Positions 1 to 14,588 of a stretch of DNA of 64,000 nt are shown in pieces. Position numbers and translations under genes: made by a program. Origin of the DNA: Parapristionchus giblindavisi (taxonomy: Eukaryota; Nematoda; Chromadorea; Rhabditida; Diplogasteridae). Numbering within the stretch: position 1 is the first letter of the stretch; every line of letters starts with the position of its first letter. The notes beneath the pieces were generated by a model, which saw nothing but the letters and a program-made list of their open reading frames with translations, did no database searches and was not told the origin of the DNA. The stretch is from positions 310,001 to 374,000 of the forward strand of contig CALSFV010000248.1 in assembly GCA_943737045.1 (NCBI GenBank), given 5' to 3'.

Positions 1-1379
1 ATGGCATTACTTCTTCTGTTTCTGAGGGAAATCGAAACGATTAGCATTCACAATAAGTATTGTTATGGACAATTGAATTTCTATCAATGATCAGATTAAT
101 CAGATTTTCCTAAATATCGATTAACCGTGCAATTCTCCCTATTTTCCATTTCAATGATTCATTATCTCGAGAGGGACATTGTTCACCTCTCATTGTCCAG
201 TCTTCCAGTCTCGTCGCGCTGTTGGTTGTGAGTTTATTTATGTCAGAACAATAGCACTTGGCATACCGTAAGACCGTAAGCATACCGTATAAAACTACTT
301 TACTTTGTTAAGGATAATGAAAAATTTAAACTCTTTATTTTTATCCGAACAGTGGTAAAAACTGTCATCACTCCAAACAACAGAATTCTGAAACGTGCAA
401 ATTATGGTGCCATAACTTTAGATAATAATCTGTACATAATACACTAAAAACTACATCCGTAAAAATGATAAAAATGAGAATCCTGTTAAGTTTTGTCAAA
501 TGTTGTCTCAAATTGTCACATATCTTTCTTTTTTTTTCGTTTAGAATTTGTTTTATTACATTAGTTTTTTGTGTAGAATTATTTAAAAATGGTTTTGATT
601 TTTTTTTTTTGGTTAAAGGATTTCAAACATTCAAAACCAAATTCCAAGATCTGATCGAATGATCCTAAACACAGACAAATTCTGATAGTTCAAAGTTCAT
701 TTAAAATAAATCCTGGCCATCTCGATTCACTCGACGAACATTCGGTTGGTGTTGACTTATCTACAGGAACAGTCTAGGATACTGTATCCGATGATTGCTT
801 ACGATATGCGAAATGTTATTGCTCTGTCATAAAGAAACTCACAACCAACATCGCGACAAGGGTGAACAACGTCCCTCTTAAGACAATGAATCATTGAAAT
901 GAAAAATAGGGAAAATGATACGGTAAATCAATAATCTGATTAGTCTGATCACTGAGATAAATTCAATTGTCCATAACAATACTTATTGTGAATGCTAATC
1001 GTTTCGATTTCCCTCTGAAACAGAAGAAGTAATGCCATTTTGTTTGTTTTGATCGTATCGCCTCTTCCAAAATAGAATCAGAATCAGATCGATGTGAGCA
1101 ACTTTGCTGTTGACTGCCAAGCTCTCAGATGAGAGGGGAGCTAGATATATCTTCAAACGTGCCTCAATGGGGGCGCCTCAATGTGGGGCGGCTGGAGTGA
1201 AGACAGACCAGTAATAGGGGAAGGGAGAGGTGAGAGACAGTGCGTAATTCCCGCAAAGGTGCGGGAATTACGCGACCTCTGGCAGTCTCTCTTCTCTCGT
1301 GCGGGAAATGACGAGAGAGGGGCAAGAGATGGGAAGAGGGCGCGGTAAATTCGATTATGCTTACGCAACGGCAACCCTA
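1..1379. mobile_element. hAT-like foldback element, left end cut by window
   Basis: This is a non-coding palindromic element whose two arms are about 600 bp; the first bases of the window pair with about 960-1037. Full copies exist at 23911-25659 and 42054-43804, so about 370 bp are missing here. The right end reads GCAACCCTA and is followed by GTACACAC (1380-1387), the 8-bp target duplication seen on both sides of the complete copies. Ends of the TAGGG type with 8-bp duplications fit the hAT superfamily. No transposase is present, so it is non-autonomous. Confidence 0.75.
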
Positions 1380-1387
1380 GTACACAC

Positions 1388-2242
1388 TCAGACTGGATTA
1401 ACGATCGCATAGTTTGATCTTAGATAAACTACAAACATCGCATAATTTTATTACAAAGATAGCATGAAAAAATGTAACATGGAAAGATAAGAATACGGCG
1501 GCATACAAGCCATAATACCCTAGAGACAAATTTCTCCTGATTATCGATTGATTGATTGATTATGCCCGTTTATCGATTAGTTGTCCTTCTTTATTACCGT
1601 AGTCTTCGGATTATTGATTGAATCGGTGTCATCAGTTTCTTATTTATGATTCTAGATGCTCAGGTTCCTATTGATAACGATTGGACAAGCTACTGATTGT
1701 GACAGATTTTAGAGATCAAAGATCAACGAATTTTAATCAATCAAATCCAAATATAGTTGTACGCGGACAAATGATTTTATTCAGAGCACTATGAGCCAGT
1801 GTTCAGGCGAGTAATTGGAGTTCAAGGATCAAAGATCAAAGTTCAAAGATCAGATCTGATGAGGGTTCGCTACGGAGTGCGAGGCAGCAAAATGAATGTC
1901 CGCTTCTGACTATTTGTGCTTGCGGACGTGGTCCTACAACGTAACAAAATTAATGAAATGATGAGACATTATAAATTACCTATTCCATATCTATCTACTA
2001 TAAGTAATTAGTTGAACCTTCTCTATCCACAGATTGGAACGCGCACATACCTAGTATTTATGCATATAAGAAATTGGAAGCTGTAGGATTACGGTAGATT
2101 ACGCTATGTCAAAGGCCTGGTCATATTTATGACTGCTGCCATATGAAAGCGGGCAGATACGTAATGGAAAACTATCACGATTTATTTACTTACTCACCGA
2201 AATACGAGTAATATGTGGATGGATAAACATATTAGACGTATA
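1388..2242. other. Intergenic segment of tandem unit A
   Basis: No gene is supported. The segment recurs at 25668-26587 and 43813-44667, with a small replaced patch in unit B near 26265-26390. It carries several GATCAAAGATCAA-type motifs (near 1715 and 1830), which recur elsewhere in the window. Confidence 0.5.
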
Positions 2243-2697
2243 ATGTTGTCGAGGGGTACTGTAGTCGAGGGGTACTGTATTCGCTTGATACTGTAATCGA
2301 CGGATACTGTAGTCGAAGTATAGTGTAATCGAGGGATACTGTATTCGCTTGATACTGTAATCGACGGAGACTGTAGTCGAAGTATACTGTAGTCGAGGGG
2401 CACTGTAATCGATTGATACTGTAATCGACGGATACTGTAATCGAAGTATACTGTAGTCGAGGGGCACTGTAACCGCTTGATACTGTAGTCGACAGATACT
2501 GTAGTCGAAGTATACTGTAGTCGAGGGGCACTGTAATCGATTGATACTGTAATCGACGGATACTGTAGTCGAAGAATACTGTAGTCGAGGGGCACTGTAA
2601 TCGATTGATACTGTAATCGACGGATACTGTAATCGAAGTATACTGTAGTCGAGGGGCACTGTAAACGCTTGATACTGTAGTCGACAGATACTGTCGA
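2243..2697. repeat. 16-bp satellite with 64-bp higher-order repeat
   Basis: The basic unit is 16 bp, of the form TACTGTARTCGA plus four variable bases. Four variants alternate in fixed order to make a 64-bp higher-order unit; for example GGGGCACTG recurs 64 bp apart near 2589 and 2653. About seven higher-order units are present. Open frames of 99-205 codons on the minus strand arise only because the monomer lacks stops. Unit C has a near-identical array (44668-45122) and unit B a shorter one. Confidence 0.9.
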
Positions 2698-3267
2698 TAA
2701 TATTGGCTTCTGTGAGTGCAAATTGTAATCTAATTTATCGCCATTGACACATTCAAACTGCAATGGTGAGACGTGGAAAGTTGACCCTTCTATAACGATT
2801 CCCTTCTTCATCTTCTTCTCTCATTGTCAGTAAGATAGATCACTCTCCCTTCCCTGTCTATCTCCAAATCAATCAATAATCATTGATTGGTTCCTTCCTT
2901 CCTTCCCATCATCACTTCTCTCTTTTTTCACTCCTTCGTCGTTTTGCTGCCCCTTTCTTTACCCATTGTTTATTTATCATTAACATATTTACTTCTAACC
3001 TTTTGCACATGTCTTTATTTTGCCAGTTTTAACGGCACATCCCGAGCTCATTTGAATCTTTCCGCTCTGGTCACACTCTCTCGCTTTCTTTATCTTCGAG
3101 AGAGCGTTCGTCTCCCTCTCTTCCTCTCCTTCTCAACCTCTACCCCCCCTTCTCCCTCTTTACCTCTACCTCTCTCTACAAGCATATCGACAGACCGTTG
3201 AGCTCACTTTGTCTAACTTCACATGTCTATAACGATTCCCTTCTTCCTCTTCTCCTCTAGGGTAGAT
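2698..3267. other. Pyrimidine-rich intergenic segment
   Basis: No gene is supported. It holds CTCTCC-rich tracts and, near 3030-3110, a sequence related to the TTAA-type MITE at 10361-10460 (CGAGCTMATTTGAA core). It ends at CTAGGGTAGAT, the left flank of the DIRS insertion. Confidence 0.45.
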
Positions 3268-3310
3268 TGTTATATTTTGCAAGACAAACAAAGTTTGTTG
3301 AAGTAAAATA

Positions 3311-3316
3311 TTTATT
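3311..3316 (-). terminator. Possible poly(A) signal AATAAA of the DIRS element
   Basis: AATAAA on the minus strand, about 45 bases before the left end of the element, so correctly placed for a transcript that starts in the right repeat. The same string is copied in the ICR. Position and motif are the only evidence. Confidence 0.4.
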
Positions 3317-3334
3317 ATGCTTATCACTGCTATA

Positions 3335-3559
3335 GTAATCACAAATGCTTTTGTCCCATCAAAGCTCATTTCTCTAAAATAAAAAAATGACCAAAAGGTC
3401 ATAAACGAGATCAGGCCCATCAACCCAAGAAGGGAAGGGGCGAAAATCGATTGATCTCATGGAGATGGAAAGATAGACTACAATCGATAGTCTACCTCCC
3501 GCTCTCCTAGGGATGTGTTGTTGGTGGGGAATGCCCTGACTCGTCACTTGTCAATTTTT
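3335..3559 (+). repeat. DIRS left inverted terminal repeat
   Basis: Reverse complement of 8707-8931, identical over the whole length as far as I can align it by eye. The additional outer 67 bp (3268-3334) are unique to this end and are copied in inverted form in the internal complementary region. Confidence 0.9.
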
Positions 3560-3656
3560 TGAGAGAATGTTGGGTACTTAACAATTCTTTATCCTACCGT
3601 AACTCGGCAGTCAACAATGATAAAGAAAATAACACGATACAATAGAAGTGATAAGA

Positions 3657-3759
3657 TCACTTCTTCCCATTAATCTTCTTCTTCTCTTTGTTCTTATCAC
3701 CTTTGTGAGACCTCTTAGATGGACGTCGAGCTCTGTACGAACGTTGTGCTGACTCGCTC
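3657..3759 (-). CDS. Possible last exon of DIRS recombinase, basic tail
   Basis: On the minus strand, a pyrimidine-rich acceptor ending TTTCTTTCAG lies at 3760. It is followed by an open stretch coding for about 34 residues rich in Lys and Arg, ending GDKNKEKKKINGKK and a TGA at 3659-3657. A donor of near-consensus form, GTAAGTAT, starts at 3907 inside the ICR. Removing 3907-3760 (148 bp) joins the recombinase frame to this exon in phase. The tail resembles a nuclear-localisation segment. If the intron is retained the recombinase stops at TAA (3906-3904). The splice is inferred from sequence only. Confidence 0.5.
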
Positions 3760-3822
3760 CTGAAAGAAAGACGTTATTCAGGATATGGGAGGGGTGATAT
3801 GAAATTGAACGGGCGGGTTTAT

Positions 3823-3930
3823 GTGATTACTATAGCAGTGATAAGCATAATAAATATTTTACTTCAACAAACTTTGTTTGTCTTGCAAAATATAACATTA
3901 TACTTACACTGCTCTAGTAATCACAAATGC
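3823..3930. repeat. DIRS internal complementary region (ICR)
   Basis: From 3823 to 3896 it is the inverted copy of the element's left end, and from 3897 to 3930 it is the inverted right end. The two ends are fused at TATAACA|TTATACTT. In the accepted DIRS model such a region acts as the splint for making a circular cDNA. Here it overlaps the end of the recombinase ORF: the stop codon TAA at 3906-3904 is part of the copied right end. Confidence 0.92.
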
Positions 3931-4896
3931 TTCTACAACACACCTTTCCTGAAGAACAGTTTCTTGGAAGGACCCTTCTATCTCTCGTAAATAGAACTTT
4001 TCGAAGGTTGTGCCGGAGGGAGCCCAGTTAGCTGCTTTTAAAATGGCCTTACTGGACAGCCCTCTAGAGCTACAGGCAGAGGTTGACGCGGCCCTAGTTG
4101 AGTGAGCCCCAAAGGAATCGTCTATCCCTGCCCCCGCTAGGACGGATTTTAGCCATCTGGCCACAGTTGATGAGGATATCGGCTTGTGTGGAGCAATAAA
4201 GGATAGGAGGAGTCTATCTTCTCCGTTCCTGAATCGTTCCGTTCTTGTCAGGTAAGCCTTGATATGAGCAACGGGACATAATCTTGCATTGTTAAAACCG
4301 TGATACTCAGCTATGTGGGGTGATTTGGATCCACGGTTCTTGTTCATATAATTTAGAATAAAAACCCATTTCGAATCACTCTTGACTAAGGAGCTCAAAG
4401 AGAATTGAGCAATCTCAGAAACTCTCTTAGGTGAACATAACGCCAAGAGCATCGTTAGTCTCTTAGATAACAATTCTAACGATAAATCACTCGATTCCCC
4501 TAAACCCGATAAGTATCTCGTAACCTCGCTCACATCCCATATCGTAGCGTATTTAGGTTCTGAGGGGCGCATACGAAAGAATCCTTTCATAGCTCTCTTT
4601 ATCAGGTCCTCATCAAACTTTCTACCAAACTGTTCAAGATAGGTTACTATTGCTGCGCGATAGGTCCCCAAGGTGGCTACACTCCTTCCTTCGTTGAACA
4701 TTGAAGACAGAAAATTAATAATCTCTACTGAACTTGGATTGAGATGATCTATATCATTCTCTCTACAGTAAGTTTGCCAGGTTCTTAGAGCGGAGTCGTA
4801 TTGCTTCCTGGTCGCCGGGGCCCAGGAACTAAGGACTGCTTGAATTGCATCTTCGTTTAGCCCTCTACCCTCATATAAATACCTTAGATTAGCCAT
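3904..4896 (-). CDS. DIRS tyrosine recombinase
   Basis: Tyrosine recombinase of the DIRS/Ngaro type, which integrates the circular element DNA. I start it at ATG 4896, giving 330 residues that begin MANLRYLYEG; the frame is open further upstream, but that part overlaps the RT ORF. An N-terminal core-binding segment (about residues 15-100) precedes the catalytic domain. The likely catalytic residues are visible: Arg158 in PKRVSEI, His265 and Arg268 in HSTRAAS, and the nucleophile Tyr302 in KFYLRE. The ATG overlaps the end of the RT ORF by 13 bp in another frame, so expression needs reinitiation, frameshift or splicing. The C-terminus runs into the ICR. Confidence 0.9.
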   Translation of the reverse strand: MANLRYLYEGRGLNEDAIQAVLSSWAPATRKQYDSALRTWQTYCRENDIDHLNPSSVEIINFLSSMFNEGRSVATLGTYRAAIVTYLEQFGRKFDEDLIKRAMKGFFRMRPSEPKYATIWDVSEVTRYLSGLGESSDLSLELLSKRLTMLLALCSPKRVSEIAQFSLSSLVKSDSKWVFILNYMNKNRGSKSPHIAEYHGFNNARLCPVAHIKAYLTRTERFRNGEDRLLLSFIAPHKPISSSTVARWLKSVLAGAGIDDSFGAHSTRAASTSACSSRGLSSKAILKAANWAPSGTTFEKFYLREIEGSFQETVLQERCVVEAFVITRAV

Positions 4897-6921
4897 GCAG
4901 TCAGCCGGAGTCTGACTGGTTCCATAGGATGGGGTAACCCCTCTTCGTTGTGGAGAAGGGTTCGAGTGGGTAGAGTAATCGACTCTCTTGTGGCCTTCGA
5001 TAGCAGGGGAAACCAATACTGACCGCTCCATCGGGGAGCTACGAGAATCAGTCTGGTTCCCTCTCGGCACGCCTTCTTTATTGTTCTCCCCACGAGGGAG
5101 AAGGGAGGAAAGGCGTAGGCGCAGCGGCCCGACCATGAATGATCGAAGCTGTTTGTTCCCAGCGCCTCTGGATCGGGTTTATAGGAGAAGAAAGAATCAC
5201 ATTTCTTATTGATTCGAGAAGCGAAAAGATCAATCTCGGGTGTCCCCCATCTTTTGAATATCATGGTCACGGTCTCATGATCTAGAGACCATTCCTCATT
5301 CATACTAAAGATGCGTGATTCATGGTCAGCCTCCTCATTATTGATACCTGGTCTGTGGGCTGCTTGGATATGAATTCTCTTAGCATTAGCCCAATTCCAA
5401 ATGCGCAAGGAAGCCTCATTAAGGCTCTGGCATCTCGCCCCTCCGCGCTTGTTCAGGTACCAGACTGCAGTAGTGTTATCTGATTCAACTCTTACTGAGG
5501 TGTCCCTACAGTGTCCGGCAAAGCATTTAAGACCAAACTCAATGGCTACTAATTCTTTCAGATTGATATGCCAATCCAATTCGTCCCAGGACCATCTCCC
5601 ACCGGTCTTAGCCTCAGCACATACGGCTCCCCATCCTAGATTAGAGGCATCCGTCTGCAGTGTCAAGGTTACCAGGGGAGGATGAATCAATTCACTATTG
5701 AAATTCTCAATCTCCTTATTCCACCACCAAAGCTCTTGCTTTGCTGACTCCGATAATTCTACCCTTCTATCATATGAGCTCTTTGCATATGGATTTGTCA
5801 AAGAAGAAACCCAGGATTGGAGGGAGCGTGTGAAAAATCGAGAATGATGGGATGCCATGTAAAAGGAGTTTGCGAAGCCTACAAAGGACGCCACGTCTCT
5901 CACCTTAGGTAGTTTGGACCTAGTGAGACTTAGAGCTAGTGACTTCACCTTAACCAGTTTCTCCTCTGGAATCCTAAACCTCATCGAACAGGTGTCTATG
6001 GACAGTCCTAAGAAGACTAAGGATTGCGAGGGGGTTACTACTGACTTCTCCCAGTTTACAACTAGGCCTAGGCTTTCAAAGAGACTAACTGCTCTAGTGA
6101 CCGAGTGAACCAGTTCCTCTCGGGAGCTGCCTAGAAATAACCAATCATCCAAGTAGACTAATAACCGTAACCCTTCAGATCGAAGCCTCTCTGCTACAGG
6201 CTTAATCAATCTAGTGTAAACATACGGCGCTGAGGCTAAACCAAAGGGAAGGGCCACAAAGGAATAAAGTCTCCCTGAGTGGCTGAACATGAGATACTTC
6301 TGATGTTCTTCATGAATTGGAACCCCAAAGTAGGCATCCCTCATGTCAATCTTACACATGAAATCTCCTTGGTTAACCATATCTCTAATCATTTTTAGCT
6401 GATCCATCTTAAAGGGATGCTTTACCAAATATTGATTGAGAGGTCTTAGATTAATGACTGGTCGAGAACCACCGTCTTTTTTGGGAACACAGAAGACCTT
6501 GGATATCCACCCAGGAGACCCTAATGGTTTCTCGATTATGGCACCTTTGTCTAATAATTTCCTAATCTCTATGCCCATTGCTACAGAATTATCCATGCTA
6601 GACAGGTCAGAAATAGGGTGAATTCGCGGGGGACCCTCTACGAATTCTAGCTTGTAACCCGAAACTGTATTGAGCAACCAAGGGTCGTTTGATAGAAGCC
6701 CCCAAGCTGCCTTGAATAGTCTTATCCTACATACACCGGATGAAACTGACTCGTGACCCGTGTTTCTCGAGAGGAAAAGGTTATCATACTTGTCTCGATT
6801 CTCAGATGATGTTGTCCTCTTAGCAGGTGCAGATGGAATAGGAGGGAGTTCCTTCTTCAATCCGTCCTTTCTAAGAGCATCTATCGTCTTCTTGATATCC
6901 GACGAAGTGACTCCTCCTTCC
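4884..6921 (-). CDS. DIRS reverse transcriptase / RNase H / Dam-like polyprotein part
   Basis: This is the replication polyprotein of the element. The frame is open from 6947, but there is no ATG at its start. The coding part most likely begins at 6921, after a splice acceptor, as an in-frame extension of Gag. The RT core has PLNQYLVKHPF, KIDMRDAYFGV, ALPFGLASAP and the catalytic YLDD (6155-6144). RNase H follows, with its acidic residues in LQTDASNLGWG, NLKELVAIEF and VESDNTTAVW. The last part (about 5260-4950) has IDLFASR and AYAFPPFS, which fits the Dam-like methyltransferase region of DIRS1 elements, with FPPF in place of the usual D/NPPY. No frameshift or stop is seen over 2 kb, so the element could be active. 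Confidence 0.92.
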
Positions 6922-6967
6922 CTGAAGTAACATAAGTTAAAACCCAATTCCAGTATTAATTATTTAC
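6922..6967 (-). promoter_or_regulatory. 46-bp intron spanning the Gag stop: possible Gag/Gag-RT switch
   Basis: The intron runs from GTAAAT (6967) to TTACTTCAG (6922). Retention gives ATG AAG TAA and a free Gag. Removal joins AA to G and continues in the RT frame (EGGVTSSDIKK) with no stop. The length, 46 bp, is not a multiple of three, so retention could never read through. The RT frame has no ATG near its start, so splicing is the simplest route to RT expression. Confidence 0.7.
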
Positions 6968-7953
6968 TTCATGATATCCATGAGCTCCGAACCAAATAGT
7001 AGAGGCCTTATTTCTCTGTGTGAATCGACCCTTGAGGAACGTCCGAGCGGTTTTCCTCTTAATCCGGGTATCGCCCGATTCGGGTCTAGTCTGAGAGTCC
7101 TGTAAAATCATCATAGATAGGTATTTATAATGATCACTACCAACCTCAACGTATTTTCCCTGCGCCAGTGCGTAATCTCTTGTTGAACGGCGCCTAATAG
7201 CTGCATTGCACATCGGAGGAACCCCAATGCCTTATTCTCATCGACTACTGCGTCCTGAGAGATGATCTCGGAGTGAGCCATACAGCAAGACGATAGTGAC
7301 CCACACAGAAGGGCCTGGAGATTACACAACTGTCCGTCTTGTAGACGAATAGGTGGAATCTAAACGATTTGAGGATGTAATGTCCAAGAGATCAGTACTT
7401 ACGACTTCGATGGGAAATCTATCATCGAGCATTGGTGGTAGAGCGAATATAGATGTTGGGAGTGGTAGAACTTCCAGGAACGATTCCCTTTCGTCTCTTG
7501 ACATTACCTTACCGGACGCACAATCCTCAAATAGCTGCGTCGACCTATCGTCAACGCGGACTCTAGGTCTTTGAGCCTTGACCTGAAAATAATCAGTCAG
7601 ATAAGAGTCGTTATCATCTTCTCACTAACCTTCAGGGTCGGGGCATCGGGCACGTGTTCAGAAGCTGTTGCGAAATCGTACGTTCTTGGGATAGGCACGA
7701 GTCTCTCAACGATTGATTTCCTCTCCTCCTGAAAAGAAGTTAATGAACCTGTTTAGCCACTCAAACACACTAGCCAGTAAGTGTTAATCTATACCTCAGG
7801 AAGAGGTTGATCAGGCTCTAGATCCATCTCTAGCTCCGAGTGGACCGAGCTTTGTCTGCTTCTCGATGAAGACGAGGATTCGGAGCTAGAAGAGCTTGAG
7901 GATGATGGAGACCGTTCGCGCCTCGACAACTTCGACCTCTTATGTTTACCCAT
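6966..7953 (-). CDS. DIRS Gag-like protein, five exons
   Basis: I reconstruct exons 7953-7795, 7728-7630, 7582-7403, 7359-7145 and 7099-6968. Every joint keeps the frame and every intron (66, 47, 43 and 45 bp) has GT and AG ends with a T-rich acceptor. The product is about 262 residues: a Ser/Arg-rich start (MGKHKRSKLSRRERSPSSSS), an acidic patch, then a helical domain with CNLQALLCGSLSS and ALGFLRCAMQLLGAVQQ typical of DIRS Gag. If the next intron (6967-6922) is kept, translation stops at TAA two codons after MDIM. An acceptor-like TTGCAG lies directly before the ATG, hinting at a leader intron or trans-splicing. The Gag assignment rests on position and composition, not on a family match. 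Confidence 0.72.
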
Positions 7954-8244
7954 CTGCAATTATACAATTTAGAACGATAAACACGGACGAGCTCCGTAGC
8001 TATATCGAAACAACATAGTGATAGCAAAGACAGTAAAACAAGCCCGAACATGTTTACCGCGCAACACCCTGTGAGCGCTAGCACCTTAAGCGCGCCAAGC
8101 GTTGTCTAGAGCGCGTCTCTTGTGTTGATCAGCCCTTGCTGTACTATTGGCTCAATTTTTGAACTAATTATAGGAAAGGCTGTGCGAATAGATACTTAGA
8201 CTACTGCGGAATGCTCTGATGCGGTTGTCTCAACTTAATTCATT
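7954..8244 (-). other. DIRS leader between repeat array and gag
   Basis: No ORF of note. The minus strand ends with a T-rich tract and TTGCAG just before the gag ATG, a good 3' splice site, so part of this leader may be an intron. Confidence 0.4.
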
Positions 8245-8640
8245 CAAACACCGCAAGGGAAGAACGACCACTAGGTCTCAACTCAATCCCGAAGGGAGAG
8301 TGACCACGAGGGCTTTTCTACTCAATCTCATGATGAGAGAGTGACCACGAGGGCTTTTCTACTCAATCCCATAAAGAGAGAGTGACCACGAGGGCTTTTC
8401 TACTCGATCCCGCAAGGGAGAGTGACCACGAGGGATTTTCTACTCGATCCCTCAAGGGAGAGTGACCACTAGGGATTTTCTACTCGATCCCGCAAGGGAG
8501 AGTGACCACTAGGGATTTTCTACTCGATCCCGCAAGGGAGAGTGACCACGAGGGATTTTCTACTCGATCCCGCAAGGGAGAGTGACCACGAGGGATTTTC
8601 TACTCGATCCCGCAAGGGAGAGTGACCACGAGGGATTTTA
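8245..8640. repeat. 40-bp tandem repeat in DIRS 5' leader
   Basis: About ten units of 40 bp (TACTCGATCCCGCAAGGGAG plus AGTGACCACG-AGGGATTTTC). The last six (8401-8640) are almost identical; earlier ones are diverged or 41 bp. The array lies between the right terminal repeat and the gag start, so it is in the untranslated leader of the minus-strand transcript. It may be a promoter or packaging element, but that is a guess. Confidence 0.85.
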
Positions 8641-8706
8641 GCGCCGAAGTGAAGAAAACAGACGGAAGGGGAAAGACGACTGAAGAGAAACCCCAACATG
8701 AGCTCT

Positions 8707-8931
8707 AAAAATTGACAAGTGACGAGTCAGGGCATTCCCCACCAACAACACATCCCTAGGAGAGCGGGAGGTAGACTATCGATTGTAGTCTATCTTTCCA
8801 TCTCCATGAGATCAATCGATTTTCGCCCCTTCCCTTCTTGGGTTGATGGGCCTGATCTCGTTTATGACCTTTTGGTCATTTTTTTATTTTAGAGAAATGA
8901 GCTTTGATGGGACAAAAGCATTTGTGATTAC
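8707..8931 (-). repeat. DIRS right inverted terminal repeat
   Basis: Partner of 3335-3559. The last 19 bp of the element (8932-8950) are specific to this end. They carry the strong splice-donor-like string GTAAGTAT, which is also present in the internal complementary region. In the transcribed orientation this repeat is the 5' end of the element. Confidence 0.9.
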
Positions 8932-9154
8932 TAGAGCAGTGTAAGTATAACACTCTCCTTTCCCTGTCTATCTTTCAGTCAATCAATAATCATTGATTGG
9001 TCCCTTCCTTCCTTCCCAACATTACTTCTCTCCTTTTCTTTTCACTGTTTTTAGACACTAGTGTCGTTTTGCTGCAACTTGCCGTCCCTTTTTATTTATT
9101 TACAATAAACATATTTATTTTTTCCTCATTTCGCGCTCTATCCTTGTACTCTAC

Positions 9155-11185: not shown

Positions 11186-13795
11186 TAACTAGTCCTAAAG
11201 CTGTTTGTATTCAATGTACTTTCGATGAGTTTCAATGTTTTCTCATGCAGGCACTGAAACAGTATATAAATAAATCAATAAATGAGGATTACGATAAGAT
11301 GTTAATACAGTAAATAGTAGATAGAGTATTTTAAAGAGAAAGTGGATAGAGGGCGAGGCATACGTGATAGATTCCACTATAATTCTACTTTATCGGTCAT
11401 ACTTCAAGCATCTGCCGTATTATAACTTGTCCTAAAGGTTGTTTGTATTCAATGTACTTTCGATGAGTTTCAATGTTTTCTCATGCAGGCACTGAAACAG
11501 TATATAAATAAATCAATAAATGAGGATTACGATAAGATGTTAATACAGTAAATAGTAGATAGAGTATTTTAAAGAGAAAGTGGATAGAGGGCGAGGCATA
11601 CGTGATAGATTCCACTATAATTCTACTTTATCGGTCATACTTCAAGCATCTGCCGTATTATAACTTGTCCTAAAGGTTGTTTGTATTCAATGTACTTTCG
11701 ATGAGTTTCAATGTTTTCTCATGCAGGCACTGAAACAGTATATAAATAAATCAATAAATGAGGATTACGATAAGATGTTAATACAGTAAATAGTAGATAG
11801 AGTATTTTAAAGAGAAAGTGGATAGAGGGCGAGGCATACGTGATAGATTCCACTATAATTCTACTTTATCGGTCATACTTCAAGCATCTGCCGTATTATA
11901 ACTTGTCCTAAAGGTTGTTTGTATTCAATGTACTTTCGATGAGTTTCAATGTTTTCTCATGCAGGCACTGAAACAGTATATAAATAAATCAATAAATGAG
12001 GATTACGATAAGATGTTAATACAGTAAATAGTAGATAGAGTATTTTAAAGAGAAAGTGGATAGAGGGCGAGGCATACGTGATAGATTCCACTATAATTCT
12101 ACTTTATCGGTCATACTTCAAGCATCTGCCGTATTATAACTTGTCCTAAAGGTTGTTTGTATTCAATGTACTTTCGATGAGTTTCAATGTTTTCTCATGC
12201 AGGCACTGAAACAGTATATAAATAAATCAATAAATGAGGATTACGATAAGATGTTAATACAGTAAATAGTAGATAGAGTATTTTAAAGAGAAAGTGGATA
12301 GAGGGCGAGGCATACGTGATAGATTCCACTATAATTCTACTTTATCGGTCATACTTCAAGCATCTGCCGTATTATAACTTGTCCTAAAGGTTGTTTGTAT
12401 TCAATGTACTTTCGATGAGTTTCAATGTTTTCTCATGCAGGCACTGAAACAGTATATAAATAAATCAATAAATGAGGATTACGATAAGATGTTAATACAG
12501 TAAATAGTAGATAGAGTATTTTAAAGAGAAAGTGGATAGAGGGCGAGGCATACGTGATAGATTCCACTATAATTCTACTTTATCGGTCATACTTCAAGCA
12601 TCTGCCGTATTATAACTTGTCCTAAAGGTTGTTTGTATTCAATGTACTTTCGATGAGTTTCAATGTTTTCTCATGCAGGCACTGAAACAGTATATAAATA
12701 AATCAATAAATGAGGATTACGATAAGATGTTAATACAGTAAATAGTAGATAGAGTATTTTAAAGAGAAAGTGGATAGAGGGCGAGGCATACGTGATAGAT
12801 TCCACTATAATTCTACTTTATCGGTCATACTTCAAGCATCTGCCGTATTATAACTTGTCCTAAAGGTTGTTTGTATTCAATGTACTTTCGATGAGTTTCA
12901 ATGTTTTCTCATGCAGGCACTGAAACAGTATATAAATAAATCAATAAATGAGGATTACGATAAGATGTTAATACAGTAAATAGTAGATAGAGTATTTTAA
13001 AGAGAAAGTGGATAGAGGGCGAGGCATACGTGATAGATTCCACTATAATTCTACTTTATCGGTCATACTTCAAGCATCTGCCGTATTATAACTTGTCCTA
13101 AAGGTTGTTTGTATTCAATGTACTTTCGATGAGTTTCAATGTTTTCTCATGCAGGCACTGAAACAGTATATAAATAAATCAATAAATGAGGATTACGATA
13201 AGATGTTAATACAGTAAATAGTAGATAGAGTATTTTAAAGAGAAAGTGGATAGAGGGCGAGGCATACGTGATAGATTCCACTATAATTCTACTTTATCGG
13301 TCATACTTCAAGCATCTGCCGTATTATAACTTGTCCTAAAGGTTGTTTGTATTCAATGTACTTTCGATGAGTTTCAATGTTTTCTCATGCAGGCACTGAA
13401 ACAGTATATAAATAAATCAATAAATGAGGATTACGATAAGATGTTAATACAGTAAATAGTAGATAGAGTATTTTAAAGAGAAAGTGGATAGAGGGCGAGG
13501 CATACGTGATAGATTCCACTATAATTCTACTTTATCGGTCATACTTCAAGCATCTGCCGTATTATAACTTGTCCTAAAGGTTGTTTGTATTCAATGTACT
13601 TTCGATGAGTTTCAATGTTTTCTCATGCAGGCACTGAAACAGTATATAAATAAATCAATAAATGAGGATTACGATAAGATGTTAATACAGTAAATAGTAG
13701 ATAGAGTATTTTAAAGAGAAAGTGGATAGAGGGCGAGGCATACGTGATAGATTCCACTATAATTCTACTTTATCGGTCATACTTCAAGCATCTAC
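11186..13795. repeat. 238-bp satellite, about 11 near-identical units
   Basis: The period is exactly 238 bp (the mark TCTGCCGTAT is at 11411, 11649, 11887 and so on). About 11 copies are nearly free of differences. Each unit contains TTTTCTCATGCAG followed by a short open stretch ending in TAA. Units B (29311-29540) and C (47928-48160) each have one copy, so the array expanded in unit A alone and recently, or has been homogenised. Confidence 0.93.
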
Positions 13796-14588
13796 CGTTT
13801 ACATCTTCTCGTTTCATTCATTTAATATATGTTCCGATGGAATAATTTATTCTTTTGGTTCTTCCACTCCCACTTTTCTTCTCCATTCACTACAGCTTTC
13901 AGAGGTACTGCAAGTGTAGCTTTTGGATGTTAGTCTTGAGGGACATAAAAGCAATAAGAGCGAGAACCAATAGATGAATCTGTAAAAAATGAATCTTATG
14001 TTTAGGATAAAGAAATTCGGCCTTACGATTGACAGTCAAACGATTTCACCACTCAACCAATGTGATGCATGTGAAAAAGAGCAACTATGAACTATCACTT
14101 CATTTAACTAATTATTATTTTGTTCTTCTCTTCATTCATGCAGAACTTTTCGTCCATTTCATTCTTTCATCTTTCACTTCGACTCTTCGGTCGCTTCTCA
14201 TAGTTCTTTCATCGTGGTAAGAATTTGACGTATATAAATCTCTCAAATGGGAGATTCTGCGGGCGTGTATCGATATCCGTGATTACTGTAAGGTGTGGAT
14301 TACTGTAAGGTGAGGATTATTGTAAGGTGAGGGGTATGGTTTGTAGATATCAAAGATTACTGTGTACTGTGCGGGGTACGGTTCTAAATATATGCGGCTA
14401 CACGGCGGCTCAATAATAGTAACTAACAGGCTCCCGCCGGAGAAAAAAAAGTATCGCAAACTGCGTGTTGATAAGCATTACAACATCTAGGTACTCCCAG
14501 CGCGAAAGTTGACTACGATATATCTGGGCGCTCGCCATACGAACGCTTCTGACTAGACCTATCATCGAATTTTACGAGTTGGGAAACA
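13796..14588. other. Intergenic segment with GATTACTGTA motifs
   Basis: No gene is supported. A cluster at 14278-14340 repeats GGATTACTGTAAGGTG with small changes. It resembles the CTGTA core of the 16-bp satellite at 2243-2697. Confidence 0.4.

Follow-up and report, generated by a model that had tools for sequence, protein, structure and literature searches.

A DIRS1-like retrotransposon in the nematode Parapristionchus giblindavisi with six predicted introns and an internal complementary region lying mostly within one of them

Introduction

The DIRS-1 element of Dictyostelium and DIRS1-like retrotransposons combine a reverse transcriptase (RT), a methylase-like domain, a tyrosine recombinase (YR) whose frame overlaps that of RT, inverted repeats, and an internal complementary region (ICR) that matches both element ends (accessible parts of PMC5633606 and PMC3266345). 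The accessible part of PMC5633606 describes DIRS-1 as having three partly overlapping open reading frames (ORFs) and inverted repeats that drive both sense and antisense transcripts, and gives a model, not fully proven, in which sense RNA is copied and the ICR serves as template for the missing ends as cDNA is made. The same combination of features, with a methylase-like match below its cut-off, is found in an element that we describe here from a 64,000-nt stretch of the nematode Parapristionchus giblindavisi (assembly GCA_943737045.1, contig CALSFV010000248.1, positions 310,001–374,000), which we call the window and to which coordinates below refer unless a locus is named. Unlike DIRS-1, this element is predicted to have Gag and RT as one spliced frame, six introns and an ICR that is mostly intronic. 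It is known in kind, as a DIRS1-like element, and new in detail, namely in its introns and in an ICR lying mostly inside a predicted intron.

Retroelements copied through spliced RNA should lose their introns, and how some of them retain introns is an open question. The main text of a 2011 overview of DIRS elements (PMC3266345) contains neither 'intron' nor 'splic', and the accessible text of the open-access literature searched yielded no description of introns in DIRS elements, which the initial annotation had taken as already reported for some DIRS-like elements. Among nematode tyrosine-recombinase elements, Dirs1-like ones are known from the same phylum as the element described here: the accessible part of a nematode survey (PMC4157794) reports, within Chromadoria, one partial Dirs1-like element, from Pristionchus pacificus. 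The window element differs from that fragment in being structurally complete and in having introns.

Splicing has been described in other retroelement classes. In the long terminal repeat (LTR) retrotransposons BARE1 and Ogre of plants, splicing shown by reverse transcription PCR divides Gag from Pol expression (BARE1) or takes place between ORFs (Ogre), according to the accessible part of PMC3735527. An intron near the Gag/Pol boundary, as in BARE1, or between ORFs, as in Ogre, resembles the arrangement in the window, and BARE also splits translated from replicated RNA; in contrast, splicing of BARE1 creates the Gag stop, whereas splicing of the window element would remove it. Cer1 of Caenorhabditis elegans is likewise a nematode element, and its genome RNA must exit the nucleus unspliced, with a spliced mRNA encoding CERV, which is needed for that export (accessible part of PMC10309623). 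Unlike the window element, Cer1 is an LTR retrotransposon and has no stop between gag and pol.

Results and discussion

A structurally complete DIRS1-like element

The element, found in a nematode close to Pristionchus, has the complete structure of a DIRS1-like retrotransposon; in this group the survey cited above (PMC4157794, accessible part) gave just a fragment. This class assignment is based on structure and domain matches (inverted repeats, ICR, RT and YR) and bears out an initial annotation, made from the letters of the window alone, that had called it a DIRS retrotransposon. The element ends were inferred from two exact ICR arms: positions 3932–3898 are the reverse complement of 8950–8916 (35 of 35 bases), and positions 3897–3822 that of 3343–3268 (76 of 76 bases). 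The element as a whole and the features of its 3' part are as follows.

3268..8950, minus strand: whole DIRS1-like element, 5683 bp, with its left end at 8950 and its right end at 3268
8692..8950, minus strand: left inverted terminal repeat, 97.3% identical over 260 columns to 3315–3574
4884..6921, minus strand: exon 6 of the predicted Gag-RT fusion, with RT, RNase H-like and Dam-like stretches and a stop at 4886–4884
3908..4896, minus strand: YR exon 1, its ATG at 4896 overlapping the RT stop
3822..3932, minus strand: ICR, 111 nt, its arms abutting at junction 3898/3897
3760..3907, minus strand: likely intron 6, 148 nt, phase 2, donor GTAAGTAT
3657..3759, minus strand: putative YR exon 2, a basic C-terminal tail open to a TGA
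3268..3574, minus strand: right inverted terminal repeat, whose terminal extension 3314–3268 reaches beyond the left repeat

RT matched Pfam RVT_1 (PF00078) above the cut-off (E = 3.4e-22), and the recombinase matched Phage_integrase (PF00589; E = 4.2e-9, 36.8 bits, cut-off 27.1). Matches to RT_RNaseH (3.6e-5, 24.3 bits, cut-off 24.8) and Dam (8.3e-5, 22.8 bits, cut-off 28.1) were both sub-threshold, and no DDE integrase family appeared among the Pfam matches of the two ORFs scanned. A PAT-like element was ruled out, as long split direct repeats were absent: outside the tandem array of the 5' leader there were just two short direct matches, of 47 and 29 nt, both a consequence of the ICR and inverted repeats.

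The host genome (251 Mb, 703 contigs) was searched with the element DNA, and 40 of 190 candidates were scored, giving 75 matches. A sister lineage comprises two copies, L009 and L010, that are ~75% identical to the window element in RT-YR, and a truncated copy, L011. Between the window element and L009, substitutions at codon positions 1, 2 and 3 numbered 110, 78 and 206 in RT and 37, 33 and 103 in YR, and this third-position excess indicates that both frames evolved under selection.

Most of the ICR lies within a likely recombinase intron

The YR gene very likely carries an intron of its own (3907–3760), which the initial annotation, incomplete in this respect, had missed together with its overlap with the replication element. 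The predicted donor, GTAAGTAT, begins 10 nt upstream of the circle junction, and removal of the intron would change the C-terminus of the recombinase from one ending in ITRAV to a basic tail ending in ITRAVSESAQRSYRARRPSKRSHKGDKNKEKKKINGKK. The acceptor was picked from three CAG sites, of which those at 3760 and 3733 enter the same tail frame and that at 3749 does not. L009 has the same donor, followed by a comparable basic tail that begins VNEPGQRLFRVRSPAKRPHKGDKHRDK, and identity to L009 is 75.7% in the tail exon and 67.1% in the 82 nt past the stop.

With intron 6 spliced out, the ICR would lose 86 of its 111 bases, among them one entire arm and the circle junction. Positions 3907–3786 are 99.2% identical to L009 and 96.7% identical to L010, compared with 78.6% and 78.3% in the YR coding sequence; conservation this high is expected of a replication element.

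Removal of predicted introns 1–5 joins gag to RT in one frame

Upstream of RT, five gag exons are separated by four predicted introns, and a fifth intron lies at the Gag/RT boundary.

7795..7953, minus strand: gag exon 1, beginning with ATG and SR-rich
7729..7794, minus strand: intron 1, 66 nt, phase 0; a stop at offset 3 when retained
7630..7728, minus strand: gag exon 2, in the joined open frame
7583..7629, minus strand: intron 2, 47 nt, phase 0; first of 57 GT-AG pairs
7403..7582, minus strand: gag exon 3, in the joined open frame
7360..7402, minus strand: intron 3, 43 nt, phase 0; second of 29 pairs, the top pair being one codon away at the donor
7145..7359, minus strand: gag exon 4, in the joined open frame
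7100..7144, minus strand: intron 4, 45 nt, phase 2; first of 41 pairs
6968..7099, minus strand: gag exon 5, with the C-terminus LLFGSELMDIM(K)
6922..6967, minus strand: intron 5 (46 nt, phase 2), between Gag and RT; reads AAG TAA when retained

All five introns are GT...AG, and the five gag exons join into an open frame of 261 codons that continues into exon 6 at 6921 and ends with the RT stop, at 4884. The five introns and the open frame left by their removal had been proposed in the initial annotation and are confirmed here, its junction numbers being the flanking exon bases. Spliced Gag matched no Gag family in Pfam, where the sole listing was SR-25 at E = 0.93, and the name 'Gag' is based on its position before RT and on its alignment to the N-termini of relatives. 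Among these relatives, P0001 is a continuous Gag-RT protein of 948 aa that covers 93% of the query (longest contig 3616 bp, from a DNA or RNA source), P0002 is a continuous Gag-RT protein of 900 aa that covers 88%, and P0021, P0030 and P0032 have a Gag-like N-terminus ahead of RT. P0002 and P0030 are Panagrolaimus superbus entries.

A profile was made from the Gag regions of six relatives, which represent the elements of about four species (P0002/P0030 and P0032/P0033 are same-species pairs). Spliced Gag scored 89.5 bits against this profile, compared with 34.8 bits for the best unspliced frame. When introns 1 to 5 were retained one at a time, the score became 80.6, 4.3, 47.1, 71.4 and 85.9 bits, respectively; homology thus strongly backs the prediction of introns 2–4, and for introns 1 and 5 the profile discriminates little. 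Intron boundaries were examined by enumerating and ranking the nearby GT-AG pairs for each intron. The proposed pairs for introns 1 to 5 ranked 9 of 53, 1 of 57, 2 of 29, 1 of 41 and 2 of 61 among all GT-AG pairs, and, among pairs that keep the frame open, 1 of 14, 2 of 10, 1 of 10 and 1 of 8 for introns 2 to 5 (for intron 1, see below).

These results bear on whether the gag 'introns' might be short insertions or damage accumulated in a dead copy. Consistent with that idea, none of the 75 genome matches (40 of 190 candidates scored) is a second copy of this gag. In contrast, all five introns are GT-AG, 43–66 nt long and rich in A+T (63–74%, as against 50% for the gag exons), no further interruption breaks the spliced Gag-RT and YR frames, and intron 5 and the intron 1 donor recur in the sister lineage. 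Introns of this size also occur in a nearby host gene: the gene for Aurora kinase, encoded from 17924 (best match in Pristionchus mayeri, 72% identity with a query that contained one misread residue), has eight valid introns, two of them of 43 and 47 nt and the other six of 194–1153 nt. A merely decayed copy, which the open spliced frames and the profile scores disfavour, is therefore very improbable.

Intron-bearing copies have moved

Introns 1, 5 and 6 are present in both L009 and L010, and introns 1 and 5 in the truncated L011. The donor position of intron 1 (CCTGAG/GT; slashes mark junctions) is common to the window and the sister lineage. Around intron 5 the flanking exons of window and sister copies align and the GT and AG are kept, with an intron of 46 nt in the window and 49 nt in the sister copies whose sequence differs. 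The fusion frame across this intron reads MK/EGGVTSSDIKKTIDALRKD in the window and MK/DGCISFSDIKKTIDALRKD in L009 and L011, with one residue different in L010. Of the two properties that the initial annotation had wished to see conserved in other copies, the GT/AG ends of intron 5 are therefore kept and its length is not.

L009 and L010 share 96.2% identity over 5317 columns that cover the element from one end to the other, and their flanks are unrelated. As introns are present in both, intron-bearing copies were inserted separately, and the cycle must be completed by a nucleic acid that still contains introns; the initial annotation had argued more specifically that unspliced RNA must reach reverse transcription. 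Three routes can be considered for this movement, of which copying of unspliced sense RNA is the most economical, rather than antisense RNA or DNA circles.

The persistence of introns might be due to movement of some copies as DNA, with the recombinase excising or copying out circles that are reinserted without an RNA stage. YR can act on DNA, and L009 and L010, although coding-dead, were separately inserted. Against this, RT was under past selection and the ICR arms are exact, both of which serve an RNA-templated cycle, and we regard a DNA route as distinctly unlikely. Alternatively, the replicated RNA could be an antisense transcript from the right inverted repeat, which would lack the sense splice sites and so keep the introns. 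The inverted repeats of the window element are 97% identical, and those of DIRS-1 yield sense and antisense transcripts; the published DIRS-1 model, in contrast, copies sense RNA (PMC5633606, accessible part for both points). To this antisense route we likewise assign only a small probability.

A proposed division between spliced RNA for protein and intron-containing RNA for replication

We favour an explanation in which the host spliceosome makes the protein-coding RNA of the element. Splicing of introns 1–5 would yield a single Gag-RT polyprotein that also contains RNase H-like and methylase-like stretches, and removal of intron 6 would add the basic tail to the tyrosine recombinase, whereas the RNA that is copied would be the intron-containing form. 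With one ICR arm and the circle junction inside intron 6, a fully spliced mRNA would be without the template that is thought to regenerate the element ends. Should the ICR act as template in the way proposed for DIRS-1, such RNA could be translated and not replicated; its loss of the ICR would keep it out of the replication pool, which would explain why introns persist in DNA copies. If true, an intron that coincides with the piece proposed to be required for circularisation offers a simple and testable reason for intron retention. At the DNA level the exon-intron layout, the overlap of the ICR with an intron, the recurrence of introns 1, 5 and 6 in the sister lineage and the movement of intron-bearing copies are established; that splicing follows the prediction, that the ICR is essential as in the DIRS-1 proposal and that this sorts mRNA from genome RNA we infer. 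We consider the explanation as a whole moderately probable. A version in which the end-regenerating template inside an intron is what separates mRNA from genome RNA is more tentative: splicing would produce the tailed recombinase and at once make the RNA unfit for replication, new copies would come from unspliced RNA alone, introns would be protected from loss, and intron 5 might in addition set the ratio of Gag to Gag-RT. This is a bolder reading, and we would place it somewhat below an even chance.

Several points weigh against this explanation. The ends proposed for intron 1 form the lowest-scoring of the 7 pairs that keep the frame open, and its exact ends are thus not fixed by homology; the intron 1 acceptor is not clear in L009. 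The strong conservation of the intron 6 donor can stem from its role as an element end instead of from splicing. The recombinase tail of L009 slips frame near its end and reads beyond the stop used in the window, and within the tail's first 80 nt the changes between window and L009 number 6, 6 and 9 at the three codon positions, with little third-position bias; selection on the tail is thus not demonstrated. The sister copies are decayed and near-identical, hence represent one lineage, and they lack the region of introns 2–4. Finally, splicing of intron 6 alone does not prevent the loss of gag introns from RNAs that retain intron 6.

Intron 5 and a possible switch between Gag and Gag-RT

The initial annotation had also proposed that alternative splicing of intron 5 sets the ratio of Gag to Gag-RT. 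The reading of the frames on which it built this proposal stands: with intron 5 retained the frame reads ATG AAG TAA and stops at once, and with the intron removed it continues into RT, where exon 6 has its first methionine at residue 109 (located by eye). Judged by length, free Gag would be ~29 kDa and Gag-RT ~105 kDa. With no methionine for 108 residues, RT relies on an upstream start, which supports the view that RT would be obtainable only as a Gag-RT fusion, from RNA without intron 5. The placement of the intron exactly at the Gag stop is likewise correct, but it loses its significance, since GTAA at the donor of a phase-2 intron necessarily reads NNG TAA. The Gag stop as a special design was thus rejected, as the splice site itself forces a stop. 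Retention of intron 1 also leads to an early stop; in introns 2 and 4 the stops lie at offsets 30 and 31, and intron 3 reads through.

If a regulated fraction of the RNAs kept intron 5 while being spliced elsewhere, free Gag would be made in excess over Gag-RT, and for a particle-forming element a 1:1 Gag-RT fusion would be odd. Such a switch would fit the position of intron 5 at the end of conserved Gag, after LLFG, the requirement of RT for its removal, and its donor in the window (GAA/GTAAAT), which is the only one of six without G at both –1 and +5; BARE1, in which splicing sets Gag against Pol, offers a precedent (PMC3735527, accessible part). In contrast, a phase-2 GTAA donor brings the stop with it, as in the sister lineage, where the donor's own TAA forms the stop, and the donor there is consensus-like, GTAAGTAAG, in 3 of 3 copies (one lineage), such that no weak site is conserved. 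At the protein level the relatives are continuous Gag-RT proteins, and a search for Gag-alone proteins found none at E ≤ 1e-3 among 2482 candidates scored, which is weak evidence given that Gag diverges fast. The stop would also sit ~3.7 kb upstream of the element end, a position favourable to nonsense-mediated decay. A regulated Gag/Gag-RT switch at intron 5 is thus possible but unsupported, and on balance unlikely.

Leader, frame overlap and other DIRS-like sequences

One further feature of the element lies between its left repeat and gag.

8251..8645, minus strand: 5' leader array, tandem units of ~40 bp with nine GGTCACTCTC motifs

This array is longer in the sister copies (L009 2470–3260; L010 2640–3300). 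Directly 5' of the Gag ATG, AATTGCAG (window 7940–7965) is a possible 3' splice site; used as an acceptor for a spliced leader or within the 5' untranslated region, it would possibly strip the leader repeats from the mRNA. The overlap between the recombinase ATG and the RT stop spans 13 nt (ATGGCTAATCTAA, window 4884–4896) and suggests coupled translation as a possible mode of YR expression; in L009 the two also overlap, with a different stop codon (by eye).

A scan of viral contigs gave 30 pattern matches and no relative. Of the 75 genome matches, 20 were selected for a closer look because they carry ICR-like sequence, and all 20 have end- or ICR-like sequence, as expected from that selection. 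Two of these 20 loci (L029 and L030) retain traces of RT from a second DIRS family, which is decayed. This second DIRS1-like family, represented by L030 (690–5403) and L029, is 4.7 kb long and has inverted repeats and an ICR together with decayed RT and YR; the same 84–85% ICR match occurs at 13 places among the scored candidates. At L015–L028 and L031–L034 the ends and the ICR lie close together with no RT match, as in short non-autonomous copies, and L033 has a single weak YR match (E = 0.005). L012–L014 have element ends and no RT match.

In L011, a 3-kb block that contains the 5' part of a sister element occurs twice in direct orientation (654–3633 and 6022–9003), the two copies being 99.9% identical. 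Beside the element in the window, a long tandem array with units of ~240 bp occupies 11200–13800 (by eye).
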